From contig NZ_CP024123.1 of assembly GCF_002736105.1 (NCBI RefSeq), positions 1,790,001 to 1,854,000 on the forward strand: a DNA stretch of 64,000 bases, written 5' to 3'. Source of the stretch: Solibacillus sp. R5-41. GTDB taxonomy: Bacteria > Bacillota > Bacilli > Bacillales_A > Planococcaceae. The notes under the pieces are model-generated. The model searched no databases and was not told the origin of the DNA. It was given only the letters and a program-made list of their open reading frames with translations. This document shows, one piece after another, positions 6,981 through 46,441 of the stretch. The stretch's first letter is position 1. Each line of letters begins with the position of its first letter. The position numbers and the translations under genes were made by a program.

Positions 6981-7165
6981 AATAAATAAAATGATAATCT
7001 TCTTATTATAATAGCGTATAGGTACATTAGCTAAAAATATTATACCTAAATTGTGTATATTTGCTAAAAATTAGGAAATTGTCTATATATCAATAGAAAT
7101 TTACTCTGTTAAGTAAAAGTGAAGTTCGATAAAATAGAAGTTGTGAAACAATAGGTGGTGGATAC

Positions 7166-7912
7166 GTGAAAAAAACAATCTTTATTACAGGGGCAACAAG
7201 TGGAATTGGGCTAGAAATGACGAAGCAATTGATTGCACAAGGTCATACCGTTTTTGCAACAGGTCGCAATCAGAGTGCACTAAAATCGTTGGAACATCTA
7301 GGGGCGGTGGCAATTCAAGCAGACTTACGAAATGTGGTGGATATTGACCGTGTCGTTGCCTTATTACCGGCAATTGATGTCGCTATTTTAAATGCAGGAA
7401 TCGGCTATTTTGCGAGCGCGTTTGATTTGTTGGATGAAGAAGTAGATCAAATGCTAGAGCTTAATGTAAAAGCTCCCATTTATTTAGCAAAACGTTTATC
7501 TGCTCAGATGATGGAGCGAAATAGTGGGCATTTTATTTTCATCGGATCACAAGCAGGAAAAGTGGCAACAAAAAAAGCAAGTGTTTATGCAGCAAGTAAG
7601 CACGCCATTACCGGGTTCGTCAATGGATTACGCTTGGAGCTTGCTGAATATAAGATTGCTGTTACAGGCATTTACCCAGGGCCAATTGATACGCCATTTT
7701 TACAAAATGCGGATGCGACAAACGCTTATCGAGATGCCATTAGTAAGTTTCTAATTCAGCCAAGTAAAGTGGCTAGTGAAGTCGTTAAAGCAATTGAAAC
7801 GAAGCCACGAGAAGTCAATTTACCGCGCATATTAGGAATCACAAGTAAAATGTATGCGGTCGCACCAAAAGTTGTGGAATTTTTCGGTAGTGGTTTTTTC
7901 AATAAAAAATAA
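7166..7912 (+). CDS. Short-chain dehydrogenase/reductase
   Basis: 248 residues with GTG start after AGGTGGTGG. It is a classical SDR: cofactor motif TGATSGIG (8-15), NAG at 77-79, catalytic Ser128, Tyr141 and Lys145 (YAASK), then PGPIDTPF. It reduces or oxidises an unknown alcohol/carbonyl using NAD(P). It stands alone, so context does not give a substrate. Confidence 0.88.
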   Translation: MKKTIFITGATSGIGLEMTKQLIAQGHTVFATGRNQSALKSLEHLGAVAIQADLRNVVDIDRVVALLPAIDVAILNAGIGYFASAFDLLDEEVDQMLELNVKAPIYLAKRLSAQMMERNSGHFIFIGSQAGKVATKKASVYAASKHAITGFVNGLRLELAEYKIAVTGIYPGPIDTPFLQNADATNAYRDAISKFLIQPSKVASEVVKAIETKPREVNLPRILGITSKMYAVAPKVVEFFGSGFFNKK

Positions 7913-29942: not shown

Positions 29943-31052
29943 TTAGTCTTGATCTGGGTGAATACGATTTTCCGTTTCTTTATCAAAGAAATGGGCTTTG
30001 TTCATATTTAATGCCATTGTAAGTACTTCGCCTGGTTTAACGTCCGTGTAAGCATCGACACGAGAGATAAATGGTTGTCCCTCAATTTGAGAGTAAAGAA
30101 TTGTTTCGGCACCGAGTAATTCCGCTACCTCGATTTTCACCTCAATTTTAGAACCTGGTGAAGCTTCAATGGATGCAAGTTCAGTATGGAAATCTTCCGG
30201 GCGAACACCCATCGTAATTTCTTTGTTTACATAACCTTGCTTACGTAAATAGTTCATTTTTTCTTCTGGGATGGAAAGTGAAACATTGCCAATGGTCATT
30301 TTTCCATCTAATAGTTTACCCGAGAAGAAGTTCATTGCAGGCGAACCAATAAAACCGCCGACAAAAACATTTTTTGGTCGCTCGTACACATCTTTAGGTG
30401 TCCCAACTTGTTGAATAATACCGTCCTTCATAACAACAAGTCTAGTTGCCATTGTCATTGCTTCCGTTTGGTCATGTGTTACATAAATCGTCGTTGTTTG
30501 TAATCGCTGATGAAGCTTAGTGATTTCAGCACGCATATGTACACGAAGCTTTGCATCTAAATTTGATAATGGCTCATCCATTAAGAAAACTCTTGCATCT
30601 CGAACGATTGCACGACCTAATGCAACACGCTGACGCTGACCACCAGATAAGGCTTTCGGTTTACGATTTAAATATTGCTCAAGATCCAAAATTTTGGCAG
30701 CTTCCTTTACACGACGATCAATTTCTTCTTTTGGTAGCTTTCGTAACTTCAGACCAAATGCCATATTATCGTACACACTCATGTGCGGATAGAGTGCATA
30801 GTTTTGGAATACCATCGCGATATCGCGGTCTTTAGGCGCTACATCATTCATTCGTTTTCCATCGATTAGCAATTCACCTTTTGAAATTTCTTCTAAACCA
30901 GCCACCATACGCAATGTTGTTGATTTTCCACACCCCGAAGGACCAACGAAAACAATAAACTCTTTATCTTTGATATCAAGGTTAAAATCTTTAACCGCTG
31001 CTACATCTTTATCATAAATCTTGTAAATGTTTTCTAATTTTAATTCAGCCAT
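29943..31052 (-). CDS. msmX: Sugar ABC transporter ATPase, MsmX/UgpC-type
   Basis: 369 residues from ATG 31052. Walker A GPSGCGKST, Q-loop FQNYALYPHMSVYDNM, signature LSGGQRQRVALGRAIVR, Walker B VFLMDEPLSNLDAKLR, plus a C-terminal TOBE/OB domain (GVRPEDFH). MsmX energises several sugar importers lacking their own ATPase. The importer starting at 32572 has no ATPase, so this is the obvious partner. A cre-like site upstream suggests carbon catabolite control. Confidence 0.93.
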   Translation of the reverse strand: MAELKLENIYKIYDKDVAAVKDFNLDIKDKEFIVFVGPSGCGKSTTLRMVAGLEEISKGELLIDGKRMNDVAPKDRDIAMVFQNYALYPHMSVYDNMAFGLKLRKLPKEEIDRRVKEAAKILDLEQYLNRKPKALSGGQRQRVALGRAIVRDARVFLMDEPLSNLDAKLRVHMRAEITKLHQRLQTTTIYVTHDQTEAMTMATRLVVMKDGIIQQVGTPKDVYERPKNVFVGGFIGSPAMNFFSGKLLDGKMTIGNVSLSIPEEKMNYLRKQGYVNKEITMGVRPEDFHTELASIEASPGSKIEVKIEVAELLGAETILYSQIEGQPFISRVDAYTDVKPGEVLTMALNMNKAHFFDKETENRIHPDQD

Positions 31053-31073
31053 TGTCAATATCCCCCTTAAAAA

Positions 31074-31088
31074 TGAAAGCGTTTTACA
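31074..31088. promoter_or_regulatory. cre-like CcpA site upstream of msmX
   Basis: TGAAAGCGTTTTACA fits the cre consensus TGWAARCGYTWNCW with mismatches only near its right end. It lies about 20 bp upstream of the msmX start codon. Confidence 0.5.
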
Positions 31089-31252
31089 TAGTGTAGAGGA
31101 AAGGGGTGTGAAATGTAAATATTCACATTGCACAAAATTTTCGGACTATTTATAGGGCAATGTGTACAAAATTGGTTCATCATTCATTTTTCGTAGCTGA
31201 CAACGCGTTAAACATCCCTATAAAAGAAGAAGCACTCTGAATTACGACATTC

Positions 31253-32152
31253 TTAATCAGTTCTCTTAGTGATTAATGGAATCGCAAGCGCTAGAAATAC
31301 TGCATTTGAGAAATCTCGACAGTCAATGCCCGTTTTATTAGTTAATTTATCGAATCGGTATTGCAGGCTATTCCGATGAATATGTAATCTTTTAGCGGCT
31401 AGAGAAGCATTCAAATTATATTGTAAAAACACTTTTAACGTATGAAGCAATTCCCCATCCTCAAGACTTTCAATTAAATAGTTGGAGAGTAGTTTTTTCT
31501 CGATTAAATGTGCCGATGTAACGAGAATGATAGGAAAAGCTTCATAAAATAGGACCGTTTTTTCTTGTTCAATATAAGTAAGTAGTTCTTGAAAGCATTG
31601 TTTTTCCATTCTAAATTTCTCTTTTAAAAACAAATCCGCCTTATGTAATTGTCCGATAAAACTATAAATAACAACAAGAAAGTCACTTGTTAATGTGTCG
31701 CTTAACTGGATAAAATCCTCCTTATCAAAAATACTTAGTGGTTTTTCTTCAATAATAATTCCGTACATATTGTTAATCCATATAACGATCGGTTGCTGGA
31801 AAGCCCCTTTAATGGCTTCTTCAAAGTTAATCGGGTCAATGATTGGTTGTTTTAAACGAAAATAAAAAAAACGAATGGATTCAACATCTTCCGAAAAAGG
31901 GAAGTCGTTTGAATCACCAAATAAAAATTGTTGCCATTTGATATGAACAACATTTTTTTTTGAATTCGTTTCCGTGTCCTCAATTGGAAGAAATAATGAT
32001 CGCAATAGGTTTAGTTCCACTTCTGAAAGAGCTGTTTTTAATAGGCCAAAAATTTGCCCGTCTTCTGTTTGGAACCAATAGTTGTTTGTGTCTTTAATTG
32101 TGAATTCGGAAGTAAAAGCCATTTGGAAATGGTTCGCTAGTTTTTCAATCAT
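31253..32152 (-). CDS. CdaR/PucR-like transcriptional regulator
   Basis: 299 residues from ATG 32152 (AAGGAG upstream). The C-terminus is the PucR/CdaR helix-turn-helix: HTLKVFLQYNLNASLAAKRLHIHRNSLQYRFDKLTNKTG. The N-terminal ~220 residues are a sensor of unknown ligand. It sits between msmX and the divergent sugar-import operon and is the best candidate for their specific regulator. The perfect inverted repeat at 32253-32298 may be its site (inference). Confidence 0.85.
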   Translation of the reverse strand: MIEKLANHFQMAFTSEFTIKDTNNYWFQTEDGQIFGLLKTALSEVELNLLRSLFLPIEDTETNSKKNVVHIKWQQFLFGDSNDFPFSEDVESIRFFYFRLKQPIIDPINFEEAIKGAFQQPIVIWINNMYGIIIEEKPLSIFDKEDFIQLSDTLTSDFLVVIYSFIGQLHKADLFLKEKFRMEKQCFQELLTYIEQEKTVLFYEAFPIILVTSAHLIEKKLLSNYLIESLEDGELLHTLKVFLQYNLNASLAAKRLHIHRNSLQYRFDKLTNKTGIDCRDFSNAVFLALAIPLITKRTD

Positions 32153-32252
32153 ATGCACTGCTCCTTCTACTAGAAAATAATTCTCATTACTTGTTATTAA
32201 TTTGCTTGAAAAGGATAACTTTGTCAATGGAAAGGGGTGTTAGCGTCTATTT

Positions 32253-32298
32253 TGTAAATAATTTTCTAAAATTAAAAATATTTAGAAAATTATTTACA
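32253..32298. promoter_or_regulatory. Perfect 18-bp inverted repeat, candidate operator
   Basis: Arms TGTAAATAATTTTCTAAA (32253-32270) and its exact complement (32281-32298) flank a 10-nt AT-rich spacer. It lies 101 bp upstream of the CdaR-like start and about 270 bp upstream of the binding-protein gene. There is no T-run or GC-rich stem, so an operator is more likely than a terminator. Confidence 0.55.
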
Positions 32299-32484
32299 TA
32301 TGCTAAAGTGTAGTTTACCTTCAATGGTATTTAAAGTTTATATCGCCTTTTCTTCACGTTTGAAAGAGGTTGTATAGAAAAAGGATCGTTCATGTCGGTA
32401 GAATAGTTTGAATTTTCTATATCTTCAAAATAAATAGTGGATTGAACATCCTAAATAAGGTATAATTTAACAGTAACACTTACT

Positions 32485-32498
32485 TGTAAGCGCTTTAA
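32485..32498. promoter_or_regulatory. cre-like CcpA site upstream of the sugar operon
   Basis: TGTAAGCGCTTTAA has the full palindromic core AAGCGCTT and misses one position of the cre consensus. It lies 74 bp before the binding-protein start. The rest of the 32299-32571 gap shows no gene. Confidence 0.65.
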
Positions 32499-32571
32499 AG
32501 TGGTGTTTAAAAAAATATAGGGAGATAGGGGGATTAGTAGAAATGCATAAAAATAATGGGGTGAGAAAGTT

Positions 32572-33879
32572 ATGAGTGGACTAAAAAAATTACTATTTGT
32601 AGCAATGATGTTTATTCTTATTTTAGGTACCTTAGCAGCGTGTAATGCAGAAGAATCCGGAAAGGAAGTTGATCCTCCGAAAGAATCCGGAAAGGAAGTT
32701 AATCTTCCGAAAGACAAGGTGGAAAACACGTCTGTCGAGTTTTGGACTATTTCTCTTCAACCAACATTTAATGATTACTTTAATGAATTAATAGCTAATT
32801 ATGAGAAAGAGAATCCAGGTGTAAAAATTGAATGGAAAGACTTCCCGTATGACGCAATCCAAAATAAATTATTAACAAGCATTGCGAGTAAGCAAGCACC
32901 GGATGTTGTTAATTTAAATACTGAATTTGCAAGTCAAATGGCTTCAAAAGGTGCATTAACAGACTTTAATAAACAATTAACAGAAGAACAGCGAAGTATC
33001 TATTTTGACGGAATCTACAATTCTACAGTAGTTGATAATGGTGCATATGCATTGCCTTGGTATACAGGAATTCCAGTGCTTTATATCAACACAGACTTAG
33101 TAGAAAAAGCTGGACTAGATATAAAAGCTCCTCCACAAACAAAAGCAGATTTGGCTAACTGGGGTAAACAAATTCAAGAAAAAACGGGTTCTTTCGGTTA
33201 TGTTTTCACGATGGAAACGCGCTCTATTCTTGAAGAAGGATTCAAAGTGGCTGAAGGAGGAAAAGCTGCATTTAATAATGATGAAGTAAAAGCGTATATC
33301 CAAAGCAATATAGAGCTAATTAAAGCTGGGGTTATTCCTAAGGGTATTCCTGCATTCGCCCAACAAGTTCAACAATTTGGTAGTGAGCAAGTAGCGATGA
33401 TGATCTCGAGTTCATCATTTATTAATCAATTAAAAACGGCTTCACCAGATGTATACAAGAAAACGATTGCCGTGCCAGCACCTCTTGGAAAAGCAGGTAT
33501 TCGTTTTACGAACTCTATGAATCTAGTTGTACCAAATGCTTCTGATAATGTTGAAGCAGCCACTGCATTTGCACACTATGTAACAAACGATGCAAATCAA
33601 TTGGCTTTCTCTAAAGCAGCAAATACACTGCCTTCAACGAAAGCAGCTGCGAAGGATGAATTCTTCTATAAAAATGATGGGACATTAGAGGGGCAAGCAT
33701 TAACAGCATCTGTTGAAAGCTTAGATAAAGCGTCAGACTTTTACCTAGGTATTGAAAATGCGAATGATGTAAATAAAGCCTTTAATAAGCGCCTGCAAAA
33801 TATCTATATTAATGATCAAGATCTTAATACTGAATTGGATGCAGCTGAAAAAGAAATTAACGATATCTTAAGCCGCTAA
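32572..33879 (+). CDS. Sugar ABC transporter substrate-binding lipoprotein
   Basis: 435 residues. Signal peptide with lipobox LAAC (C24). Residues 28-47 hold two copies of a 10-residue unit, ESGKEVDPPK and ESGKEVNLPK, from an exact-length 30-bp tandem duplication in the flexible linker. The mature domain is a family-1 solute-binding protein (VEFWTISLQPTFNDYFNELIANYEKENPGVKIEW). It should capture an oligosaccharide or amino sugar for the two permeases downstream. Confidence 0.92.
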   Translation: MSGLKKLLFVAMMFILILGTLAACNAEESGKEVDPPKESGKEVNLPKDKVENTSVEFWTISLQPTFNDYFNELIANYEKENPGVKIEWKDFPYDAIQNKLLTSIASKQAPDVVNLNTEFASQMASKGALTDFNKQLTEEQRSIYFDGIYNSTVVDNGAYALPWYTGIPVLYINTDLVEKAGLDIKAPPQTKADLANWGKQIQEKTGSFGYVFTMETRSILEEGFKVAEGGKAAFNNDEVKAYIQSNIELIKAGVIPKGIPAFAQQVQQFGSEQVAMMISSSSFINQLKTASPDVYKKTIAVPAPLGKAGIRFTNSMNLVVPNASDNVEAATAFAHYVTNDANQLAFSKAANTLPSTKAAAKDEFFYKNDGTLEGQALTASVESLDKASDFYLGIENANDVNKAFNKRLQNIYINDQDLNTELDAAEKEINDILSR

Positions 33880-33935
33880 AGAAAAAATGAATGGGTAGAT
33901 GCATTTCTACCCATTTTCGATAGGAGTGGAGCCCT

Positions 33936-34835
33936 TTGAAACAGAAAAGAGTTGCAAAATTAAGTAGATTTTCAGAGGTCCAAACAGCATGGTTATTTAT
34001 GGGTCCGGGATTAATATTGCTCGCTCTATTTACCTTTTGGCCCATTATTTATAGTGTCCCTCTAGCCTTTACAAATTATTCGGTGATCGGTGAAACAAGT
34101 TTTGTAGGCTTTGAAAACTTTAAACGGGCATTTTCTGATGTCAATTTTATTGCATCTATTAAAAATTCGCTGTTATACATGATTATTGTTCCTTTTATTC
34201 AAATTTTATCAATACTTATGGCAATATTAGTCAATCGAAAAATCGCGGGGATTAAATTTTTCCGAGCTGCCTTTTATATTCCCGTCGTTACTTCGATGGT
34301 TGCGGTTTCGATTATTTGGGGATGGTTAATGAGTTCAAATGGGGTTTTGAACTATACACTCCTTTCGATTGGCATTATAAATGAAAAAATCAATTGGTTA
34401 TCTGATAAAGACACTGCACTTTGGGCAGTAATGTTTATTACCCTATGGAAAGGGTTGGGCTATTACATGATGATTTATCTTGCAGGCTTGCAGGCAATTC
34501 CGTCAGACTGCATTGAGGCAGCGAAGATTGATGGGGCAAGCAACTTCCAAGTCATTAGAAAAATCACCATTCCTTTATTAAAACCATATGTGTTTTTCTG
34601 CACATTGATTTCCCTTATGGCAGCGATACGTGTGTTTGATGAAGTATTTGTCTTAACATCTGGAGGGCCCGGGAATGAAACGTTAACGAGTAGCCTATAT
34701 ATTTACCAACAGGGTTTCGAAGTATTTGAATTTGGCTATTCATCCGCATTAGGCATAATTATTAGTTTTATTATTATGTTCTTTAGTATTTTCATCTTCC
34801 TATTTAATAAGAAGGGTGGTGTAAATCCATATTAA
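33936..34835 (+). CDS. Sugar ABC transporter permease (MalF-type)
   Basis: 299 residues; TTG start. Six membrane segments and the ATPase-docking loop EAAKIDGASNFQVIRKITIPLLKP (EAA motif) are visible. It forms half of the import channel. Its stop shares one base with the next start. Confidence 0.92.
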   Translation: MKQKRVAKLSRFSEVQTAWLFMGPGLILLALFTFWPIIYSVPLAFTNYSVIGETSFVGFENFKRAFSDVNFIASIKNSLLYMIIVPFIQILSILMAILVNRKIAGIKFFRAAFYIPVVTSMVAVSIIWGWLMSSNGVLNYTLLSIGIINEKINWLSDKDTALWAVMFITLWKGLGYYMMIYLAGLQAIPSDCIEAAKIDGASNFQVIRKITIPLLKPYVFFCTLISLMAAIRVFDEVFVLTSGGPGNETLTSSLYIYQQGFEVFEFGYSSALGIIISFIIMFFSIFIFLFNKKGGVNPY

Positions 34836-35680
34836 TGGATAAAGCGATGAAAAAAAGAAAATTACTAAAAACCATTCAAAAGAAGTTCCTTATTTATGTA
34901 CCGTTAACACTATTTGCGCTTTTTATGATGGGACCATTCCTTTGGTTAATAAGTGTTTCGTTAATGCCAGGGAAAAATGTATTTTCCTTTCCACCTGCTA
35001 TATTTCCTACATTTATTGACTTTAAAAATTATGTAGACGTTTGGCGGTATATGGATTTTCTTAAATACATCTGGAATACAGTCATTATCACATTTTTTGG
35101 TGTGATATTCAGTATTTTATTATGTAGTTTAACCGCATATCCATTAGCTATTTTTAAGTTTAAAGGTAAGAATATTATTTTTGTGGCGATGATTGCTACG
35201 ATGATTATACCTGCCGCTGCGGGTCTAGTTGTCAATTATTTAACAATAAATAAGCTCGGTTTAATCAATACATTTACTGGCGTAGTACTTCCAAGCTTAG
35301 TAACAGTGTTTAATGTATTTCTTTTTAGGCAGGCATTTATGGGTATTCCTAGCGACATTAGGGACTCAGGAAAGATGGATGGTGCCTCTGAATTTCGTAT
35401 TTGGTGGCAACTAATGATGCCGATGATAAAACCAGCGATTGCTGTTGTTGCTCTATTCGAATTTATGGCAAGTTGGAACAGCTTTTTATGGCCAATTATC
35501 GTATTAAATACAGACAAGTATCCATTAGCTTCTGCTTTAAGTACCCTAAATGGACAGTTTTCTTATAACTTTGGATGGATAGCAGCAGGAACGGTTATCT
35601 CTGTTCTTCCGATTATTATCGTATTTTTATTAACTCAAAAATACTTTATGGAAGGCATTTCAGGTGCTATAAAAGGGTAG
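34835..35680 (+). CDS. Sugar ABC transporter permease (MalG-type)
   Basis: 281 residues, six membrane segments, with docking loop RDSGKMDGASEFRIWWQLMMPMIKP; the usual EAA is changed to RDSGK, as in some CUT1 permeases. It pairs with the preceding permease. No ATPase gene follows, so MsmX-type ATPase sharing is expected. Confidence 0.92.
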   Translation: MDKAMKKRKLLKTIQKKFLIYVPLTLFALFMMGPFLWLISVSLMPGKNVFSFPPAIFPTFIDFKNYVDVWRYMDFLKYIWNTVIITFFGVIFSILLCSLTAYPLAIFKFKGKNIIFVAMIATMIIPAAAGLVVNYLTINKLGLINTFTGVVLPSLVTVFNVFLFRQAFMGIPSDIRDSGKMDGASEFRIWWQLMMPMIKPAIAVVALFEFMASWNSFLWPIIVLNTDKYPLASALSTLNGQFSYNFGWIAAGTVISVLPIIIVFLLTQKYFMEGISGAIKG

Positions 35681-35725
35681 CTGATCTGCTAATTTTAAAA
35701 ACGTCGATTACGAGGGGGTGTATAC

Positions 35726-37270
35726 ATGCAAAAAATTGTTTATGTTCCATTAGATGACCGACCATGTAATTATTCTTTTCCAAACCTTTTAACCGATCAA
35801 ACCGAAGTAAATCTTGTCCGCCCTAGTTTAAATTTAATGGGGGAAAAAAAGAAACCAGGGGACACAGAACAACTGTGGGATTGGTTATATAAGGAGTCAA
35901 TGGATGCAGATGGTCTTATTCTTTCAATAGATACATTATTATTTGGCGGGATTATCCCTTCAAGACTGCATCAACTGTCGTTAGAGACTTGCGAAAAAAT
36001 ACTAAACAGGCTCACGAGAATCAAGGCGTGTAACCCAAAAGTAAAAATATATGCTTTTAATTTAATTATGAGATGTCCTCAGTATTCTAGTAATGACGAA
36101 GAACCCGATTACTATGAGTACTGGGGAAAAGAAATCTTTAGATATGGCGAACTTTCACATTTAATATCTGCTAACCTCGCATCATTGGAGGAAAAAAAGG
36201 AATGTGAAGCATTAAATGGTCTATTGCCTAAAGAGCATATTGAGGATTATTTAGCGAGAAGAAAGATTAATGTTGGTGTCAATCAACTTGTACTAGAATA
36301 TGTAAGCAATGGAATTATTGATTTCCTTATTATCCCGCAAGATGATTCGGCTCCCTATGGTTGGACTGCTATGGACCAACAGGCAGTTAGAGGAGCTATT
36401 GCAACTCATAATTTAGAACTAGATGTCTATATGTATCCAGGTGCAGATGAAGTTGGTTGCACTTTACTCGCAAGAATGTTGAATGCTTCTAAAGACAAGA
36501 GACCGTTGATTTATCCGGTATTTTCAAGTATTCAAGGACCAGCCGTTACGCCACTATACGAAGACAGGCCATTATTTGAGACACTTAAATATCAAATAAT
36601 AGCCGCGGGGGGACTGATGACTACAAATATGCAAGAAGCGAATCTTGTTTTATTTGTAAATGCACCTGTAGAGCCAATGTTAGAGGCTGCCTGTCAAGGG
36701 GACCTGAGTACAACTTATCAAGTGAATCGAAATCTTATTGATTTTGTTGAACAACTCGAATTCACGGTGAAGAAACGAGCTATCCCTTGTATTGTAGCGG
36801 ATGTAGCTTTCGCGAATGGTTCAGATTTAGAACTTGTAAAATTAATGAAAAACAAAAAAGTTCTTTTCTCATTGGCTGGATATGCAGGTTGGAATACAAG
36901 TTCAAATTCATTAGGAACATGCATAGCGCAGGGGATGTTCTACAATATTTTTGGCGAATCACAAGGCCATCGCAATTTTTTAGCATTGCGCTATGTAGAA
37001 GATGCTGGATATTGTAGCTATGTAAGAAATGATGTAACGAATAATAAATTACGGGAGCTAGGTTACAATTACTTCCGCGTGGATGGCAAAAAAGGGGTCG
37101 TTGCTAACATTGTGCAATCACAACTAACTTCATTTATACAGGAGCATATTAACGATGATGAAAACAGCATACAAATCAAGGAATGTACGATGCCATGGAG
37201 CCGGATGTTTGAAGTTGGCTTGACGGTTGAATATTTCAAAAGGGCAGGGAATGAGAAAGCTACTGAATAA
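35726..37270 (+). CDS. DUF4127-family protein of unknown function
   Basis: 514 residues, GAGGGGGTG upstream. The start IVYVPLDDRPCNYSFPNLL is the DUF4127 signature. Other notable blocks are LSIDTLLFGGIIPSRLH, NLIMRCPQYSSNDEEPDYYEYWG, IPQDDSAPYGW and YPGADEVGCTLLARM; conserved Asp, Arg and Glu residues suggest an enzyme. There is no signal peptide, so it acts inside the cell. The position between importer genes and oxidoreductase, glycosidase-like and esterase-like genes suggests a step in breaking down the imported sugar. That role is inferred. Confidence 0.85.
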   Translation: MQKIVYVPLDDRPCNYSFPNLLTDQTEVNLVRPSLNLMGEKKKPGDTEQLWDWLYKESMDADGLILSIDTLLFGGIIPSRLHQLSLETCEKILNRLTRIKACNPKVKIYAFNLIMRCPQYSSNDEEPDYYEYWGKEIFRYGELSHLISANLASLEEKKECEALNGLLPKEHIEDYLARRKINVGVNQLVLEYVSNGIIDFLIIPQDDSAPYGWTAMDQQAVRGAIATHNLELDVYMYPGADEVGCTLLARMLNASKDKRPLIYPVFSSIQGPAVTPLYEDRPLFETLKYQIIAAGGLMTTNMQEANLVLFVNAPVEPMLEAACQGDLSTTYQVNRNLIDFVEQLEFTVKKRAIPCIVADVAFANGSDLELVKLMKNKKVLFSLAGYAGWNTSSNSLGTCIAQGMFYNIFGESQGHRNFLALRYVEDAGYCSYVRNDVTNNKLRELGYNYFRVDGKKGVVANIVQSQLTSFIQEHINDDENSIQIKECTMPWSRMFEVGLTVEYFKRAGNEKATE

Positions 37271-37286
37271 AAGGGGGTGCTTCTAT

Positions 37287-38864
37287 ATGATTAAACAAAA
37301 AACTTCGGATGTTATTGTCATAGGTGGAGGCCTAGGCGGTTGCATGGCAGCATTAGCTGTTGCCAAAATGGGCTATAAGGTCATTATGACGGAGGAAACA
37401 GATTGGTTAGGTGGACAGCTTACAAGTCAAGGAGTACCACCAGATGAACATCGATGGATTGAAAGCTTTGGCTGTACAAGTACATACCGGGAATTTAGGA
37501 ATCGGGTGCGCCAATATTATCGTGACAACTATCCACTTACAAAGGAAGCAAAAGAAAACGATTTATTGAATCCTGGAAATGGTTGGGTGAGTAGGCTAGC
37601 ACATGAGCCTAAAGTTGCGCTAAATGTAATTTCCGATATGCTGGCACCCTTTGTAAATAGTGGAAAAATAAAAATTTTATATAACTATAAACCGATAGAC
37701 GCAACAAAGGACGGAGATACGGTACAGTCCATCACAGTTGTACATGTCAATGAGTTGGCAAAAATTGAATTGAGTGGGCACTATTTTTTGGATGCAACTG
37801 AATGTGGTGATGTCCTACCAATTGCAGGGGTTGAATATGTAACAGGTGCTGAATCTAGATCAATTACTGGGGAACCTCATGCTTTAGAAGAATCAAATCC
37901 GAAAGATATGCAGTCCTTTACTTATGTTTATGCTGTTGATTATATAGAAGGTGGAAATTTTGTTATTGAAAAGCCAGAGCAATATGATTTTTGGCGTAAC
38001 TATATGCCAAAGTTCTCGTACCTTCCTTTATTTAGCTGGTATGCAGTAGATGCAAATGATACGACAAAATTAAAGGAATTCACATTATTCCCCAATGAAC
38101 AACAGATACCCTCTTTGTTTACATATCGGAGAATACTGGATACTAAAAATATTGATGGAGCGCTATATGAGGGTGATATATCACTAATAAATTGGGCGCA
38201 AAATGATTATTTTCTAGGGCCAATTATTGGAGTTTCTAATGAGGAAATTGAGAAGAACTTAAAAAATGCTAAACAACAAAGCTTATCCCTCTTATACTGG
38301 CTTCAAACAGAGGCGCCAAGATTAGATGGGGGAAAAGGTTTTCCAAGTTTAAGGCTTCGAAAGGATGTTATGGGTACAGAGGATGGGCTAGCAAAGTATC
38401 CATATATTCGAGAATCGAGAAGAATTAAAGCTATGCATACAATAACAGAGCAAGAAGTTAGTAAGGAAATAAGGGGTGAAAAAGGCATTTTCACCTATTT
38501 CGATAGTGTCGGTGTTGGTAGCTATCATTTAGATCTACATCATACGACGGTAACGAACCGAAGCTTTTATATACCAAACTATCCTTATGAAATCCCGTTA
38601 GGTGCCTTACTGCCTATCCGCGTAAAAAATGTAATTCCAGCTTGTAAAAATATTGGCACAACACAAATTACAAATGGCTGCTATAGGCTACATCCAACAG
38701 AGTGGAATATTGGTGAATCAGCAGGATATTTAGTGGCATTTTCTATGTTGAATCAGGTTACTCCTCATCAGGTAAGACAAGAGCAAAAGTATTTGAAAGA
38801 GTACCAAACGTTACTTCTCGCTAATGGCGTTCAGCTTCATTGGCCAGAGGATATTGACTTATAA
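37287..38864 (+). CDS. FAD-dependent oxidoreductase (FAD_oxidored family)
   Basis: 525 residues from ATG 37287 (AAAGGGGGTG before it). The dinucleotide motif is VIVIGGGLGGCMAALAVAKMG, then TEETDWLGGQLTSQGVPPDEH, and the C-terminal flavin-contact region CKNIGTTQITNGCYRLHPTEWNIGESAG. The family is linked to polysaccharide and amino-sugar loci but mostly uncharacterised. No signal peptide. It probably oxidises a sugar or sugar acid after import (inference). Confidence 0.85.
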   Translation: MIKQKTSDVIVIGGGLGGCMAALAVAKMGYKVIMTEETDWLGGQLTSQGVPPDEHRWIESFGCTSTYREFRNRVRQYYRDNYPLTKEAKENDLLNPGNGWVSRLAHEPKVALNVISDMLAPFVNSGKIKILYNYKPIDATKDGDTVQSITVVHVNELAKIELSGHYFLDATECGDVLPIAGVEYVTGAESRSITGEPHALEESNPKDMQSFTYVYAVDYIEGGNFVIEKPEQYDFWRNYMPKFSYLPLFSWYAVDANDTTKLKEFTLFPNEQQIPSLFTYRRILDTKNIDGALYEGDISLINWAQNDYFLGPIIGVSNEEIEKNLKNAKQQSLSLLYWLQTEAPRLDGGKGFPSLRLRKDVMGTEDGLAKYPYIRESRRIKAMHTITEQEVSKEIRGEKGIFTYFDSVGVGSYHLDLHHTTVTNRSFYIPNYPYEIPLGALLPIRVKNVIPACKNIGTTQITNGCYRLHPTEWNIGESAGYLVAFSMLNQVTPHQVRQEQKYLKEYQTLLLANGVQLHWPEDIDL

Positions 38865-38880
38865 GGAGGGGAAGAACTAA

Positions 38881-40059
38881 ATGGAACAATCAAATATTTT
38901 ATGGGTAGATTTTTTAGCGAATGCTACTAGATTACTAGATGCTAATAAAATGAAAGAGTTAATCGAACATGCCCAAAATTGTAAAATAACGCATTTAGTA
39001 GTTGATGCGAAAATTCCATATGGATTTACAACATATCCAAGTCAATTTGCCTATCATGTAAGCGAAATGAAAGATGAACAATATAGGAGATGGGAAGGCC
39101 GAGATTTTCTTCAAGAGATGATTGAACATGCTAAAGGGTCTGGTTTGAAGGTTATTGCAAATGTTGATGTGTTTTCAGAAGGCAATGGCATAGATAAAGA
39201 AGGGATGGTATATAGCAGACCGGAGTGGAGGGTTACTCACTATGATGAGACATTTTTTAATATGCCAACAGCTATGGAAAATCATAATGATCCGACCATT
39301 TTCGTCAATCCAATTCACCCAGAAGTGGAGGCTTATGAATTAACTATTATTCAAGAAATTATTAATCATTACGAAATCGATGGTGTCGTATTAGATAGAT
39401 GCCGTTATCCGAATATTTATGGAGATTTTAGTCGTTTAAGTAAAGAAAAATTTGAAGCTTATATTGAACAAAAAATAGAAAATTGGCCGACGGATATTAT
39501 GACGGTTGAGCAAAAAAAACCTGTTTTTGGTAAGCTGTTCCCGAAATGGGCAGAGTTCCGAGCAAATAATATTAAGAATTTCGTTAAAAAAGCAAGAAAT
39601 GTAGTGAAAACAAAAAATACAGATTTGATTTTTACTGTATATGTTGGTTCGTGGTACCCACTTTATTACAATGAAGGTGTCAACTGGGGTAGCAAAACGT
39701 ATCAGCCATCTTTCGAATGGGTTTCAGATACATACTGCACAGTAGCGTATGCAGAGGAATTTGATTTTATCATGACAGGCTGCTATTACCCAGAAGTCAC
39801 GATTGAAGAGGCTAAAAACAATCAAAGACCAGCTAATTGGTACAGCGTTGAAGGTGCAATTGAAATGAGCAAAGAAGTGATTAACGGGCAAATACCTGTT
39901 ATCGCTAGTTTGTATTTGAAAGATTATCAAGATAATGTCGAGCAATTTTTGAAGGCTGTAAAGTTATGTAAAGAACAAACAAATGGGGTTATGTTATTTG
40001 ACACGATATATTTAGAGGATTATCAATGGTGGGGCGAATTTGAAAGGTTCATAAAATAA
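38881..40059 (+). CDS. Glycosyl-hydrolase-like (GHL10-type) protein
   Basis: 392 residues, AAGGAGGGG upstream. The sequence has TIM-barrel glycosidase features of the GHL10 group: KITHLVVDAKIPYGFTTYPS, GLKVIANVDVFSEGNG, HPEVEAYELTIIQEIINHYEIDGVVLDRCRYP and DFIMTGCYYPEV. The Asp/Arg in VVLDRCRYP and the acidic residues in YAEEFDFIMTG are candidate catalytic residues. It lacks a signal peptide, so it would cut an imported oligosaccharide. Specificity is unknown. Confidence 0.8.
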   Translation: MEQSNILWVDFLANATRLLDANKMKELIEHAQNCKITHLVVDAKIPYGFTTYPSQFAYHVSEMKDEQYRRWEGRDFLQEMIEHAKGSGLKVIANVDVFSEGNGIDKEGMVYSRPEWRVTHYDETFFNMPTAMENHNDPTIFVNPIHPEVEAYELTIIQEIINHYEIDGVVLDRCRYPNIYGDFSRLSKEKFEAYIEQKIENWPTDIMTVEQKKPVFGKLFPKWAEFRANNIKNFVKKARNVVKTKNTDLIFTVYVGSWYPLYYNEGVNWGSKTYQPSFEWVSDTYCTVAYAEEFDFIMTGCYYPEVTIEEAKNNQRPANWYSVEGAIEMSKEVINGQIPVIASLYLKDYQDNVEQFLKAVKLCKEQTNGVMLFDTIYLEDYQWWGEFERFIK

Positions 40060-40114
40060 AGCACTCAGAAAATGAATACGTATATTGCCACGCTGCTAGA
40101 AGGAGCTAAATGCA

Positions 40115-40822
40115 TTGAATAAAGGTCATCGTGTGTTCAATAGTCTTCATTTAAATAAAACGATAAATTATACAGTTCTCACTATGTGTAATGATATAAA
40201 AAATGCGTATATAATATATGTTCAGGACGGATTTGACTATTTGGAATTGGGAAATTTAGAACAAGCCATGCTTCATTTAGTACATGACAATCCTGAATTA
40301 GCGCAGCACCTTGTGTTTGTGTGCATTCATCCTGGAGATTCGTTTGAAAGATGGGCATCATTTAGTAGCAAGGGTGCGCTTTTTTCGCAATATATTCGCT
40401 TTATGAACGACGAATTTATCTCCACTTTCGAGAAAAGTTTAAAGGTTGAAGTGATTTTAAAAAGAGGGCTATTAGGAGATTCGTTAGCAGGTAATATTAG
40501 TTTAAATATCGCATTGGAAAACCCGGATCGATGGACGCATTTAATGCTACAATCTGCTGCTGTGTCAATAGAGGATATAGGGCGAATAGGGAACATTAAT
40601 CTTTCGGGGTGGCATGTATATCAAACTGTTGGTATATACGAGGACGAATTTATAACCCCCATGTCAAACGAAAAATTATATATTTTGACGAGAAACCGTC
40701 AATTGTATAAAAGCTTTCTTTTACACAGTGCAAATGTGAACTATAAAGAAACGCAAGATGAACATCTCTGGCGTGTTTGGGAAAGTGATTTATTAAATGC
40801 ATTAAGATTTTTTGTAATGTAG
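40115..40822 (+). CDS. Esterase-D-like alpha/beta hydrolase
   Basis: 235 residues, TTG start after AAGGAG. The nucleophile elbow is GDSLAG (Ser123), and a C-terminal DEHLWRVWESDL supplies the likely catalytic His, both in the arrangement of esterase family PF00756. Last gene of the operon. It may remove acetyl or other ester groups from the imported glycan; that link is from context only. Confidence 0.8.
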   Translation: MNKGHRVFNSLHLNKTINYTVLTMCNDIKNAYIIYVQDGFDYLELGNLEQAMLHLVHDNPELAQHLVFVCIHPGDSFERWASFSSKGALFSQYIRFMNDEFISTFEKSLKVEVILKRGLLGDSLAGNISLNIALENPDRWTHLMLQSAAVSIEDIGRIGNINLSGWHVYQTVGIYEDEFITPMSNEKLYILTRNRQLYKSFLLHSANVNYKETQDEHLWRVWESDLLNALRFFVM

Positions 40823-41072
40823 GCTTCTGTGTGGAGCTGTTTTTACCGGAAATTGTGCTCCTCAGCACTGATTTCGGAATTTCAATTTTCCAATTGTTAA
40901 AAATGTGTATTTTAATTATGCAAAATACAGTAGTTGTTTGTCTAGCCATAATAATTACGAGGAACATTAGATGAAGGTCAATTTGGCAATCGGAAACCTC
41001 AACCTCAACCTCAACAAATTAAGACAACTCTATATATTGAATAAAATAACAGTCTTTTTATTTTCATCGGAA

Positions 41073-41113
41073 GGCCGGTAGTAAAGCACCTGCTTTACTC
41101 CCGGCCTCTTTTT
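41073..41113 (+). terminator. Strong terminator ending the sugar operon
   Basis: GGCCGGTAGTAAAGCA pairs with TGCTTTACTCCCGGCC across a short loop and is followed by TCTTTTT. The surrounding gap (40823-41241) also holds three CTCAAC-type hexamer repeats at about 41000-41017 and no gene. Confidence 0.9.
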
Positions 41114-41241
41114 AAAATGGCCGGAGCGACTGTAGCAGCTATTCCGATGTTATTAATCTTTATTTTCTTCCAGAGGTATTTTACAAAAGGAATTACGCTT
41201 GGATCGGATAAGTAATATTTTTTACGTGGAGATGTATGTAA

Positions 41242-41937
41242 ATGAATAAAAAACAAGGAATTTTTAATCGTATTCATGGACAATTAATCGTTTCATGTCA
41301 GGCGCTTCCAGAAGAACCCCTTCATAGCCCTTTTATTATGAGTAAAATGGCTTACGCTGCAATGCTTGGAGGGGCAAAGGGGATTCGAGCTAATAGTGTG
41401 GAAGATATTAAAGAAATGAAAAAGGTTGTTGAACTGCCGATTATTGGCATTATTAAGCAGGTGTATGAAGGGTCGGATGTATTTATAACACCGACAAATA
41501 AAGAAATTGAACTTCTTTACGTGGAAGGTGTAGATATTATTGCACTCGATGCAACGAAAAGGATTCGACCTGACGGAAAGACAATCAGTGAAGTATTCCC
41601 TGAAATTAGGGAAACGTATAAAGAGCAAATTTTTATGGCGGATTGTTCGACCTATGAAGAAGCGAAAGAGGCTTATGAATTAGGGTTTGATTGCTTAGGT
41701 ACAACATTAAGCGGTTATACGGAATATACAATGGGGCAGCAATTACCCAATCTACCGTTAATGGAAAAATTAGTACAGGATTTCCCGATCCCTGTCATTG
41801 CGGAAGGGGGAATTTGGACGCCGGAGCAACTGAAGCGCGTTTTCGAAGTAGGCGTTCATACAGCTGTCGTTGGCACAGCGATTACGAGACCTATGGAAAT
41901 TACCAAAAGATTTATTTCTGCCATAAAAGATGAATAA
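41242..41937 (+). CDS. nanE: N-acetylmannosamine-6-phosphate 2-epimerase
   Basis: 231 residues. NanE motifs: LIVSCQALPEEPLHSPFIM, MLGGAKGIRANSV, IIGIIKQVY, DIIALDATKR, MADCSTYEEA, LGTTLSGYT, and IAEGGIWTPEQ. It converts ManNAc-6-P to GlcNAc-6-P, joining sialic acid or ManNAc use to amino-sugar catabolism. A ROK kinase and an RpiR regulator follow. No NanA lyase gene is present, so free ManNAc may be the entering sugar. Confidence 0.93.
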   Translation: MNKKQGIFNRIHGQLIVSCQALPEEPLHSPFIMSKMAYAAMLGGAKGIRANSVEDIKEMKKVVELPIIGIIKQVYEGSDVFITPTNKEIELLYVEGVDIIALDATKRIRPDGKTISEVFPEIRETYKEQIFMADCSTYEEAKEAYELGFDCLGTTLSGYTEYTMGQQLPNLPLMEKLVQDFPIPVIAEGGIWTPEQLKRVFEVGVHTAVVGTAITRPMEITKRFISAIKDE

Positions 41938-41984
41938 AGAAGGTATTATTCTGCTAGAAAAGATAGATGTAGAGGATGACGAAA

Positions 41985-42863
41985 ATGAAAATATTGGCAG
42001 CCGATATTGGCGGAACATCTATAAAAGTTGGCATCTCAAATAAAGAGGGTAAGATTGAATTATTGCAAGCGTTCGACACGGAAAGTGAAAAAGGTGGAAA
42101 ATATTTAGTTGAAAAACTAATTAAGATAATAAGTGAATACGAGGACTTTGATGCGATTGGCATTAGCACTGCTGGGCAGGTTAATAGTATAGAAGGTTCG
42201 ATCATTTATGCGAACGACAATATTCCTAACTATACCGGCACACAATTAAAGAAAATTTTTGAAAATCACTTTAAAGTTCCCGTTAAAGTTGAAAATGATG
42301 TATATGCAGCCGCTTTAGGCGAACAGCACTTTGGGGTTGCCAAGGAGTTTAATGATTTTTTATGTTTAACATATGGTACAGGTATTGGTGGTGCCATTGT
42401 ACTGAATTCGAAATTATATAAAGGGTATACCGGTTTAGCAGCAGTATTTGGGCATATCATTACCCACCCTTTTGGAAATAAGTGTAACTGTAGCAAGGCA
42501 GGTTGCTATGAAACATACGCCTCGACAACCGCTTTAATTAAAAAAGCACAGGAAATACATCCTGACGTAATAAATGGTCGCCTATTTTTTGATCGATTAG
42601 CTGAGGGAGATAAGAGCCTCGCAAAAGTTCTTCATGATTGGGTTGAAGAAGTAGCATTAGGCCTCACATCCCTTATTCACATTTTTAACCCACCAGCAAT
42701 TATTATCGGTGGCGGCGTAATGGAGCAGGAAAGTGTTGTCAATATGGTATCAAGTAAAGTTCGAGAGTTGACGATGGAGTGCTTTTCAGATGTGAAAATT
42801 ATGAAAGCCTCCCTTGGCAATAAGGCTGGACTTCTTGGTGCAGTGTCACTACATCAAAATTGA
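41985..42863 (+). CDS. nanK: ROK-family kinase, probable ManNAc kinase
   Basis: 292 residues from ATG 41985 (AGAGG upstream; ATG 41976 also in frame). ATP motif AADIGGTSIKVG, sugar/catalytic VENDVYAAALGE, and zinc motif CNCSKAGCYE. The usual Glu of the ROK E-x-G-H sugar-binding motif is Val here (GLAAVFGHI). Next to nanE it would phosphorylate ManNAc, but the Glu loss makes substrate or activity uncertain. Confidence 0.82.
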   Translation: MKILAADIGGTSIKVGISNKEGKIELLQAFDTESEKGGKYLVEKLIKIISEYEDFDAIGISTAGQVNSIEGSIIYANDNIPNYTGTQLKKIFENHFKVPVKVENDVYAAALGEQHFGVAKEFNDFLCLTYGTGIGGAIVLNSKLYKGYTGLAAVFGHIITHPFGNKCNCSKAGCYETYASTTALIKKAQEIHPDVINGRLFFDRLAEGDKSLAKVLHDWVEEVALGLTSLIHIFNPPAIIIGGGVMEQESVVNMVSSKVRELTMECFSDVKIMKASLGNKAGLLGAVSLHQN

Positions 42864-42880
42864 AAATAAAGGAGTTCCAC

Positions 42881-43735
42881 ATGGCAAACCAAGATATTTT
42901 TTCACTCATTCATTCAAGGTATAATTCATTCACGAACACAGAGAAAAAAGTGGCTGACTATATTCTTGAAAATATGAAAGACGTTATTTACATGTCCATA
43001 ACGGATTTAGCAGACGCATGCAATGTAGGGGAATCCAGTGTTTTTAGATTTTGCAAAACGATGGATTTGAAAGGATACCAAGAATTTAAAATTGTTTTAG
43101 CACATAGCATTTCCCTTGATGACGAAACCCCACAACTATCCAGCATTATTACTATGCAAGACACGATTGGAGAGTTAGCATCTAAAGCATTATCCTCAAA
43201 TGTCAATGCACTAACAGAGACGTATAATTTAATGTCAGAAATTGATATTTCCGATGCCGTTGAAAGTATGGTACAAGCGGAAAGAATTCACTTTTTTGGG
43301 GTAGGTTCCTCCTTAATGACCGCAATGGAAGCGAAAAACAAGTTTATGAGGGTTACGAATAAAACGGAATGCTCGATCGATTCACATCTTCAAGTAATGT
43401 CCGCTGCCTTAATGACAGAAAAAGATGTAGCGATCCTCATTTCCTATTCAGGTTCAACAAAAGATACGATCGAAGTGGCAAAAGTAGCAAAAGAACGCAG
43501 CGCAAAAATTATTTCCATTACAAGATTCGCAAAATCCCCTTTGACGAGCTTCTCGGACATTACTTTGCTTTGCGGTGCGAATGAAGGCCCACTTCAAGGG
43601 GGGAGTTTATCTGCAAAAATCGCGCAACTGTATCTTTTAGATCTTCTCTACTTTGAATATTTTAAACGAACGAATACGGAAGCGGTACCGAACAAAGAGC
43701 GAACGGCAAAGGCTGTTATTGAAAAGATGCTGTAA
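42881..43735 (+). CDS. RpiR-family transcriptional regulator
   Basis: 284 residues from ATG 42881 (AAAGGAG upstream). N-terminal RpiR helix-turn-helix (SFTNTEKKVADYILEN...SITDLADACNVGESSVFRFCK) and C-terminal SIS sugar-phosphate domain (RIHFFGVGSSLMTAMEA, LISYSGSTKDTIEVAKVAKE). Relatives respond to sugar phosphates such as GlcNAc-6-P or ManNAc-6-P, which suits nanE-nanK control. Confidence 0.92.
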   Translation: MANQDIFSLIHSRYNSFTNTEKKVADYILENMKDVIYMSITDLADACNVGESSVFRFCKTMDLKGYQEFKIVLAHSISLDDETPQLSSIITMQDTIGELASKALSSNVNALTETYNLMSEIDISDAVESMVQAERIHFFGVGSSLMTAMEAKNKFMRVTNKTECSIDSHLQVMSAALMTEKDVAILISYSGSTKDTIEVAKVAKERSAKIISITRFAKSPLTSFSDITLLCGANEGPLQGGSLSAKIAQLYLLDLLYFEYFKRTNTEAVPNKERTAKAVIEKML

Positions 43736-43807
43736 GTAGAGATGCATGAAGTTAGTTATTTAAGCTGTTACGAGAAGTCACTTCCATATTGGCTACTCGT
43801 AATAGTT

Positions 43808-43855
43808 TTAACTTGATTTAGTAGAAGTCCCCCCGCTTCTACTGAATCAAGTTAA
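43808..43855. repeat. Palindromic mini-element (20-bp arms)
   Basis: TTAACTTGATTTAGTAGAAG and its near-exact complement (one mismatch) flank TCCCCCCG. The same TTAACTTGATTCA and GAATCAAGTTAA ends close the larger interspersed repeats at 14.2 and 22.3 kb. It sits between the RpiR gene and the broken mutarotase gene. Confidence 0.75.
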
Positions 43856-43876
43856 TCCCCGGCGGAAAAAAATATT

Positions 43877-44119
43877 GGAACAGCAGGTGTGTTAGCTGGT
43901 TCTTATAAAGACTATGTCATCGTTGGAGGAGGGGCAAATTTCCCTTACGAAACGGTTAAATGGAGGATTACTTGGAGATCAGTAGGAAAGGTTCCGTTTG
44001 ATGCACCTTGTGGGGAAGGTCTAGTTTTAATGGGGGATACGATTCATTCGATCAATGGCGAAACGAAACCAGGTGTAAGAACAAATGCCATTTATTCAGG
44101 AACAATCCCTTCTAAGTAA
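43877..44119 (+). pseudogene. Decayed nanM-like (kelch mutarotase) gene
   Basis: 80 codons remain: GTAGVLAGSYKDYVIVGGGANFP is the start of a cyclically permuted kelch mutarotase, and TWRSVGKVPFDAPCGEGLVLMGDTIHSINGET...IPSK its end. Most blades between are missing, and the first residues are gone. The join lies near codon 35. NanM converts alpha- to beta-N-acetylneuraminate, so its ruin suggests the locus once handled sialic acid or a related sugar. Confidence 0.75.
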
Positions 44120-45136: not shown

Positions 45137-45168
45137 CACTAGACAAGTAATTGTTTAGTGGGCTTTTT
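45137..45168. terminator. Bidirectional terminator between deoD and integrase
   Basis: CACTAGACAA, loop GTAA, TTGTTTAGTG, then GGCTTTTT. The same hairpin follows the deoD fragments at 58.3 and 61.2 kb, so it travels with the attachment region. Confidence 0.85.
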
Positions 45169-46337
45169 CAATGGAAAGAATCGAATAATGAGGTTGCATT
45201 TTCCTTCTGTTCCCTTGTCACATGTGAATAGGTATTGAGTGTTTCACGAATGTTAGAATGACCAAGCTGTTCTTGAATAACTTTTATATTTATCCCCTTA
45301 GAGAGCATATATGAGGCGTAGGAGTGACGTAAGCCATGAAATGTAATAGCAGGTAGTTCATGTCGTATTACAATATCACTCCATTGTTTACTCATACGGT
45401 CAGGGTGATTAGGGTAACCATTGTCTTTTGAGAAAATGAAGTAAATAGCTTTTCCCTTATCATCGAGAAGGGGATTGAACTTGTCGCCGAGTTTGTCTAG
45501 CTTCTTTTTCTTTTGCTCAATGTAAGCTTGTAGTTCCTGTATAAGCGTTTTTGGAGCGTATACAAGGCGATTCTCACCTGTCTTAGTTGAATCTAAGAAG
45601 AAACGATTTGAAAGCTTGTCATACTGTAATGTGTTTTCAACAAGGATAGTATTGTGAGCGAAGTCCAATGATTCAAAGCGTAGAGCTACAATCTCAGTCA
45701 TACGTAAGCCACAAAATAGTGCAATCTTAGTTTGTAATTGGTGCTTAATATGGAACTTAGGTAAAACAGCTAATAGATGTTGAATTTGAGATTCAGTATA
45801 GAAGTTGATACGTTTCGATTTAGCACGCTTAGGTTTTACAGCTTTGTCACATGGGTTAGATTGGATATACCCCCATTCAATAGCTTTATTAAACATGCTC
45901 TTTAATAAAACAAACTTCTCGACTAATGAACCTGCTTTATTAGCTTTTTGCTCAAGGAAGAAATGGTTCACTAGACCTGTAGTAATTTTTGATAATAGCA
46001 TATGACCAAAGTAAGAAGTAATGCCTTGCTTTAAATAGTTCTCATAGGTGTTACGAGATTTAACCTTTAGCTCTTGCTGTACATAGTTCAGCATAAACTC
46101 TTCTGAGAACGAATGAAATGTCCTTTTTAATGGATTTTCAAAAATAGGTGTTCCAATTCCTAAAGATTTTTCGAATTGAGCTATAGCGTTGATAATATTA
46201 GCTTCTGAGAGCATGGGTAAAGTAATTGTCTTTCTTTTACGTAGTCTTTTACCATGTTCATCGTAGCCATATTCCACAAGAACTTTGATTCGAGGTTTTC
46301 CATCTTTTGTTGGTGTTAAAATTTCATAGCTTGCCAT
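45168..46337 (-). CDS. int: Tyrosine integrase of the deoD-site element
   Basis: 389 residues from ATG 46337 (AAAGGAG upstream). N-terminal arm-binding domain (about 1-60), core-binding helices (about 75-170), and a catalytic domain with Arg212 (CGLRMTE), His334 and Arg337 (HGLRHSY), His360 (LGHSN) and Tyr370 (LNTYSH). It catalyses site-specific insertion and excision. The gene is convergent with and 113 bp from deoD, the usual position of an integrase next to its att site. Confidence 0.95.
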   Translation of the reverse strand: MASYEILTPTKDGKPRIKVLVEYGYDEHGKRLRKRKTITLPMLSEANIINAIAQFEKSLGIGTPIFENPLKRTFHSFSEEFMLNYVQQELKVKSRNTYENYLKQGITSYFGHMLLSKITTGLVNHFFLEQKANKAGSLVEKFVLLKSMFNKAIEWGYIQSNPCDKAVKPKRAKSKRINFYTESQIQHLLAVLPKFHIKHQLQTKIALFCGLRMTEIVALRFESLDFAHNTILVENTLQYDKLSNRFFLDSTKTGENRLVYAPKTLIQELQAYIEQKKKKLDKLGDKFNPLLDDKGKAIYFIFSKDNGYPNHPDRMSKQWSDIVIRHELPAITFHGLRHSYASYMLSKGINIKVIQEQLGHSNIRETLNTYSHVTREQKENATSLFDSFH

Positions 46338-46441
46338 TATAAGCTCCTTTAATGGCATAGTGATTCTCAAGTTTTCATAGGAACATTATACCTTGTTTTA
46401 AGTAAGGTTTGGTAGGGGAGGAGTAAAGTTATTGCGAGGGC

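Follow-up and report, generated by a model that had tools for sequence, protein, structure and literature searches.

A gene cluster built around a protein of family DUF4127 (PF13552) was analysed in a 64,000-nucleotide stretch of the Solibacillus sp. R5-41 genome (contig NZ_CP024123.1, positions 1,790,001 to 1,854,000; referred to as the window), the genome being a single contig of 4.28 Mb. The cluster is read, with a probability of about 0.8, as a salvage route for a glycan that yields N-acetylmannosamine (ManNAc) and bypasses sialic acid. On the plus strand the genes follow the order sugar-binding protein, two permeases, DUF4127, FAD_oxidored, GHL10 with DUF4985, esterase, terminator, NanE, ROK kinase and RpiR (Table 1). 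From gene context and sequence, the odds that DUF4127 is itself the ManNAc-releasing enzyme are judged to be even; the odds that the substrate is a polymer of the cell wall appear slightly below that, and an obligate redox step seems improbable.

The presence of NanE, the kinase and RpiR points to ManNAc or ManNAc-6-phosphate (ManNAc-6-P) as the product and links the cluster to the textbook ManNAc route. An earlier note on this DNA had described a glycan pathway tied to an importer and including a DUF4127 protein of unassigned reaction, and this description held, the unit being conserved across genera. The note had also placed four closely spaced genes behind a sugar ABC importer; these were found where it put them, after the genes for a sugar-binding protein and for two permeases on the plus strand, and all four Pfam families were matched. 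It had ended the functional set at the terminator and stated that none of the enzymes maps to a textbook pathway, thereby missing the three genes at 41242–43735, which belong with the set.

In the proposed scheme the ATP-binding cassette (ABC) importer would bring in a small ManNAc-containing oligosaccharide, which the esterase and GHL10 may strip or shorten, a task that could fall to the accessory enzymes GH84, GH20C or NagZ in those relatives that carry them. DUF4127 would then cut the ManNAc glycosidic bond, giving ManNAc in loci with an ABC importer and ManNAc-6-P in loci with a phosphotransferase system (PTS). The ROK protein, from its sequence a probable ManNAc kinase, would convert ManNAc to ManNAc-6-P, NanE would convert this to N-acetylglucosamine (GlcNAc)-6-phosphate, and NagA would take over from elsewhere in the genome, where two nagA genes scored over the cut-off. 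RpiR would sense the pathway, probably via ManNAc-6-P; an RpiR regulator that binds this compound is reported in the available part of PMC12713135. The FAD enzyme could prepare the sugar by an oxidation that is optional to the route. If the scheme is correct, the DUF4127 family, over its cut-off in 62 of 398 sampled genomes of the phylum and present on plasmids, gains its first function, and a single purified protein and a single disaccharide would suffice to test what becomes of ManNAc released by wall turnover. Searches of open-access papers found none that names DUF4127 or PF13552 and none with any of four spellings of N-acetylmannosaminidase, most subscription papers lying outside that scope.

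The strongest argument for the role of DUF4127 comes from plasmids. The family was detected by tblastn in 9 of 72,556 plasmid records, and the neighbourhoods were inspected in seven of the nine. On Carnobacterium plasmid pCAR50 the genes for NanE, a Cof-type haloacid dehalogenase (HAD) hydrolase, DUF4127, PTS IIC and RpiR lie in a row, with further PTS genes and an aldolase 5' of the cassette. No kinase adjoins it and the contiguous run contains no annotated glycosidase; apart from the phosphatase, DUF4127 is its only unassigned enzyme. An Enterococcus faecalis plasmid carries the order NanE-HAD-DUF4127-PTS IIC with RpiR divergent. Because import by a PTS should deliver the sugar phosphorylated, no kinase adjoins the Carnobacterium cassette, NanE needs ManNAc-6-P and, the phosphatase apart, no other enzyme of the run is unassigned, DUF4127 would be the protein that frees ManNAc-6-P, or ManNAc in the loci with an ABC importer and a kinase. 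The Carnobacterium IIC scored over the lactose/cellobiose-family cut-off, and a transporter of this class fits a disaccharide. No FAD gene is found in the viewed Carnobacterium and Enterococcus stretches, so that the redox step looks optional. Two Priestia megaterium plasmids carry acetylxylan esterase, DUF4127, ROK, manA, a PTS IIBC-type transporter, NanE and RpiR, one of them with a permease, an FAD enzyme and GH38 upstream in addition. A Deinococcus plasmid encodes a sugar-binding protein, GH20, permeases and an FAD gene adjacent to DUF4127, with NagZ divergent.

The partners of DUF4127 were also surveyed in genome contigs. The best 80 of at least 595 matching stretches, at least 570 of them relatives, were taken as named loci, and a further 40 DUF4127 loci were drawn from the sample of 398 phylum genomes; genes on the strand of DUF4127 and no more than 8 kb away were counted as neighbours. 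The open reading frames (ORFs) for these scans came from a crude caller, and the profiles had been trained on the very loci surveyed. Near DUF4127 in the 80 named loci were permeases (48 and 47), NanE (41), FAD (38), sugar-binding protein (35), RpiR (32) and ROK (31), followed by GH20C, GDSL esterase and GH31 (12 each), short GHL10 (10), GH84 (9), GH26 and long GHL10 (7 each) and the PF00756 esterase (6). The core thus comprises the importer, DUF4127, NanE, the kinase and the regulator; FAD often joins it, and the other genes vary between loci. The earlier note had proposed constant co-occurrence with FAD and GHL10 as a check; FAD is frequent, while GHL10 and the esterase were rejected as defining members. 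A candidate partner family (f21) was also rejected, since its positions suggest an ORF that runs antisense to DUF4127 in loci rich in GC. Queries for PTS, HAD, manA and NagZ (1e-10) matched 0, 0, 0 and 2 surveyed loci, so the PTS form is known from plasmid records only. On a DUF4127 tree of 120 rows the NanE/ROK label clustered, with 16 changes compared with a shuffled mean of 40.6 and none of 500 shuffles as low, a result inflated by near-copies.

Co-inheritance across genomes pointed the same way. DUF4127 was over its cut-off in 27 of the 44 phylum genomes with NanE (E <1e-20) and in 35 of the 354 others; at the curated NanE cut-off the figure was 27 of 54. Eleven of the 398 genomes carry the close FAD family; ten of these hold DUF4127 and all eleven hold NanE. 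One-sided Fisher tests, which ignore relatedness, gave 6e-14 for DUF4127 with NanE, 4e-8 for FAD with DUF4127 and 9e-12 for FAD with NanE. Of 16 genomes from the genus of the window, four carry both DUF4127 and FAD and the other 12 carry neither, as if the two had been gained or lost as one block; DUF4127 occurs in 9 of 151 genomes of the wider family sample. The earlier note had named independent scattering of the homologues as the finding that would speak against its reading. Near relatives do co-occur, and all seven phylum loci in which DUF4127 scored at least 550 bits have FAD nearby, whereas scattering holds among distant members, 23 of the 33 phylum loci below 550 bits having none of NanE, ROK, RpiR or FAD nearby. 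Across the 40 phylum loci FAD was found in 14, ROK in 11, RpiR in 9, NanE in 5 and none of the four in 23.

The frequency of the FAD gene bears on a redox-assisted cleavage, in which the FAD enzyme would oxidise a ring hydroxyl and DUF4127 would then eliminate the glycosidic bond to release ManNAc. The FAD gene is the next profile match beside DUF4127 in 26 cases, the two genes are co-inherited in the genus and they adjoin on the Deinococcus plasmid; chemically, the beta-ManNAc bond is unable to use the 2-acetamido assistance on which GH20 and GH84 depend. The degradation of 3-keto glycosides proceeds by oxidation, elimination and reduction, and resembles the window in placing an oxidoreductase beside a protein of perhaps lyase function. 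It differs in that the window flavoprotein belongs to PF12831, with structural matches of the fumarate reductase type, and in that the FAD gene is often missing. No FAD gene lies near DUF4127 in any of the 12 GH31-type loci or in the viewed stretches of the two plasmid cassettes, and the close FAD family is missing from up to 52 of the 62 genomes with DUF4127, a ceiling because no more than three candidates per genome were scored. Redox-assisted cleavage is thus considered rather unlikely. The earlier statement that an imported oligosaccharide is oxidised, cleaved and de-esterified inside the cell is partly upheld: the glycan pathway is supported, and the constancy of the set and the need for a redox step are not.

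The cluster shares NanE, a ROK-type kinase, RpiR, a sugar importer, esterases and the ManNAc-6-P node with the nan operons of sialic acid catabolism. The window genome differs in showing neither NanA nor a PF13088 sialidase, with DUF4127 and FAD_oxidored in their place. DUF4127 might replace NanA as a non-homologous sialic acid or nonulosonate lyase whose arginines bind the carboxylate, and R12, R80, R116 and R179 are invariant in both DUF4127 alignments. The NanA model TIGR00683 at 1e-60 matched nothing in the window genome or in the 62 DUF4127 genomes. A single DHDPS-family gene, far from the window and taken to be dapA, is present, and it has no relatives in the surveyed loci (phmmer, 1e-3). 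No sialidase was found in the window genome, where PF13088 was the only sialidase family sought, or among the best 25 of the 92 families in 81 unassigned operon proteins. The neighbours of DUF4127 are instead GH84, GH20C, GH31, NAGPA and GDPD, and an importer of the lactose/cellobiose PTS class does not suit sialic acid, which makes a lyase role improbable. A comparison of NanA with DUF4127 for mutual exclusion was discarded as uninformative, only 3 of the 398 genomes matching the NanA profile at 1e-60 and none of them over its cut-off.

The DUF4127 protein matched PF13552 with 544.3 bits (cut-off 27) over profile positions 1–488 of 489. Its AlphaFold2 model, built from 64 sequences, had a mean pLDDT of 95.9 and a pTM of 0.94. 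Among the 50 PDB matches that Foldseek listed, no template modelling (TM) score exceeded 0.21 by query length or 0.35 by target length, the latter value coming from a GDSL-like lipase that matched in part; these matches were rejected as homologues owing to their low scores. Sequence and profile searches of the PDB returned chance-level matches only, with no solved relative. Residues D10, R12, R80, R116, R179, N182, D207, D241, D359, N390, T391, N394, Y429 and W491 do not vary in either the near (64) or the wide (22) alignment, and several sit just past strands in the model, an arrangement that may suit an anionic or phosphorylated sugar. The same fold was seen in a predicted viral protein of 693 residues (BFVD A0A346TNQ6; TM 0.79 by query length, 23% identity), and phage records contained two partial DUF4127 matches, both in unannotated records.

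These structural comparisons also relate to the view that DUF4127 is a later or accessory protein (an isomerase, a deacylase or non-catalytic) and that GHL10, GH84 or GH20 yields the ManNAc. Weak fold hints in this direction came from UDP-GlcNAc 2-epimerase and xylose isomerase matches (TM at most 0.27) and from partial SGNH/GDSL-hydrolase matches. No gene of the contiguous cassette in Carnobacterium is annotated as a glycosidase, however, and none of short GHL10, GH84 or GH20C is constant across the named loci, so that an accessory role is regarded as unlikely. A stronger form of the ManNAc-releasing proposal, that DUF4127 founds a glycosidase class of its own for the ManNAc bond of bacterial wall polymers, unlike any solved fold and accompanied in some lineages by FAD for an optional oxidative step on capped (for example pyruvylated) ManNAc, is advanced only tentatively.

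The likeliest substrate is probably the ManNAc-beta-1,4-GlcNAc disaccharide that occurs in the wall polymers of Gram-positive bacteria, from either the teichoic acid linker or a secondary cell wall polymer. This disaccharide is the linker of wall teichoic acid according to the available part of PMC7086022, and the available part of PMC6030368 places pyruvylated beta-ManNAc, made by TagA and CsaB, in secondary wall polymers. The window genome carries genes of PF03808 (the TagA family) and PF04230 (the CsaB family) 3.6 kb apart (542178–547104), likely its secondary wall polymer locus. NAGPA (phosphodiester glycosidase) and GDPD (glycerophosphodiesterase) profiles each matched 8 of the 80 named loci, with four and three members, respectively, checked against Pfam. 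Wall polymer metabolism (TagA, CsaB, GlpQ) thus shares with the proposed route the ManNAc-GlcNAc unit, TagA- and CsaB-family genes in the window genome, and GDPD and NAGPA in relatives. It differs in that its literature, in the portions available, concerns synthesis or trimming, unlike the proposed cleavage. Among the literature matches listed, none described an enzyme cutting between ManNAc and GlcNAc. The link to walls would take another form in Acholeplasma-type bacteria, which have no wall: three of their five loci (L066, L070, L078, L080 and L085) contain DUF4127 with NanE and FAD, and scavenging, not recycling of the organism's own wall, would be expected there. In the Acholeplasmataceae locus L066 three DUF4127 genes stand in tandem (6299–7816 and neighbours), with GH84 and long GHL10 on one side and long GHL10 on the other.

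Several results weigh against the ManNAc salvage reading. The 80 named loci are the best-scoring ones and are thus biased to near relatives, and even so 24 of them have none of NanE, ROK, RpiR or FAD nearby. The plasmid copies of DUF4127 in Alkaliphilus and Deinococcus ficus lie amid unrelated neighbours, and such distant copies imply that members of the family may differ in role. In one genome (G413) the close FAD family and NanE are present and DUF4127 is absent. The Enterococcus cassette is known from its NanE-HAD-DUF4127-IIC-RpiR stretch, the flanking ORFs lying outside the annotation. The rarity of NanA matches makes its absence weak evidence outside the window genome. The 15 NAGPA/GDPD loci are mostly clostridial, outside the lineage of the window, and none has FAD nearby. 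No glycosidase appeared among the PDB fold matches listed for DUF4127. The ROK kinase was under the cut-off of every NCBIfam model listed, its top score being to a ROK glucokinase model (180.6 bits).

Both NanK models likewise scored the kinase below their cut-offs; its best PDB relative was 5nck (1.1e-57), annotated as a ManNAc kinase and presumably from Fusobacterium nucleatum, followed by a glucokinase (6.1e-43). NanE scored 303.8 bits with NF002231, over the curated cut-off of 189. FAD_oxidored matched PF12831 with 327.2 bits (cut-off 27), and G13, G17, G18 and E36 of its N-terminal glycine-rich FAD motif are invariant in 20 sequences. Its model from these 20 sequences (pLDDT 87.3) gave PDB matches mostly of the fumarate reductase, succinate dehydrogenase, flavocytochrome c3 and FAD monooxygenase types, none above a TM of 0.36 by query length, and sequence searches of the PDB matched little beyond the nucleotide-binding part. 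The GHL10 domain matched PF02638 with 88.6 bits (cut-off 27.9). The earlier note had stated that DUF4127 and most FAD_oxidored and GHL10 proteins have no assigned reaction, which stands for DUF4127 and is partly out of date for GHL10, the available part of PMC6016235 reporting lytic transglycosylase activity for the GHL10 domain of Cwp19. The window protein shares PF02638 with such peptidoglycan enzymes and differs in having no signal peptide (as judged by eye), no CWB2 match and an added DUF4985, and in not being a constant partner.

Table 1. Features of the cluster and its surroundings, with positions in the window
Feature	Position	Strand	Evidence
MsmX-type sugar ABC ATPase, candidate importer energiser	29943..31133	-	ORF
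PucR/CdaR-type regulator with HTH_30, putative link to operon	31253..32227	-	PF13556 1.7e-16
Sugar-binding protein of ABC importer	32572..33879	+	PF13416 1.1e-40, PF01547 2.2e-39
ABC permease A	33936..34835	+	PF00528 2.4e-17
ABC permease B	34835..35680	+	UgpE/MalG-type profiles, under their cut-offs
DUF4127, proposed ManNAc-releasing enzyme	35726..37270	+	PF13552 E 3.1e-163
FAD_oxidored flavoprotein	37287..38864 (ORF listed from TTG 37227)	+	PF12831 2.5e-97
GHL10 + DUF4985 glycosidase-like protein	38881..40059	+	PF02638 5.4e-25, PF16373 1e-34
Esterase, TTG start with Shine-Dalgarno (SD)-like AAGGAG	40115..40822	+	PF00756 3.4e-15
Intrinsic terminator, hairpin plus T5	41072..41113	+	
MalG-type permease C-terminus remnant, 32 residues, in frame	41117..41212	+	tblastn 69% identity to L116 stretch
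NanE, ManNAc-6-phosphate 2-epimerase	41242..41937	+	PF04131 5.4e-67; NF002231
ROK kinase, probable ManNAc kinase	41976..42863	+	PF00480 3.2e-64
RpiR-type regulator	42860..43735	+	PF01418 2.3e-25, PF01380 7.6e-26

The likeliest start of the FAD gene is ATG 37287, given an SD-like stretch and a position that matches the first possible start of the orthologues in L039 (a Solibacillus palustris locus) and L040; the TTG start would overlap DUF4127. With this start the intergenic gaps are 45, 16, 16 and 55 nt, in order. For RpiR, ATG 42881, which has an SD-like stretch, is likelier than 42860. The single strong terminator claimed by the earlier note is present as a hairpin beginning about 250 nt 3' of the esterase gene (-26.2 kcal/mol for 41066–41125, z -3.9), while the end of the esterase gene itself (40822–40838) has only a weak candidate of six pairs in a pattern scan. 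The scan found nine terminator-like sites in 30000–44000 compared with 9.9 in shuffles, and missed the strong hairpin, perhaps owing to an internal mismatch. The terminator and the permease remnant part NanE and ROK from the DUF4127 run in the window; in L040 to L044 both genes lie within the same run, 3' of GHL10. The remnant suggests that nanE once came after another sugar importer.

The MsmX label of the ATPase is assumed from the make-up of the protein, and the gene adjoins the cluster in L039 as well. The PucR/CdaR-type regulator is restricted to the window and L039 among 81 mapped loci. Soon after the cluster the minus strand carries a tyrosine-integrase-like ORF (45168–46370), and a further ORF (46704–47639) was read by eye as replication-initiator-like; together they possibly represent an integrated element.

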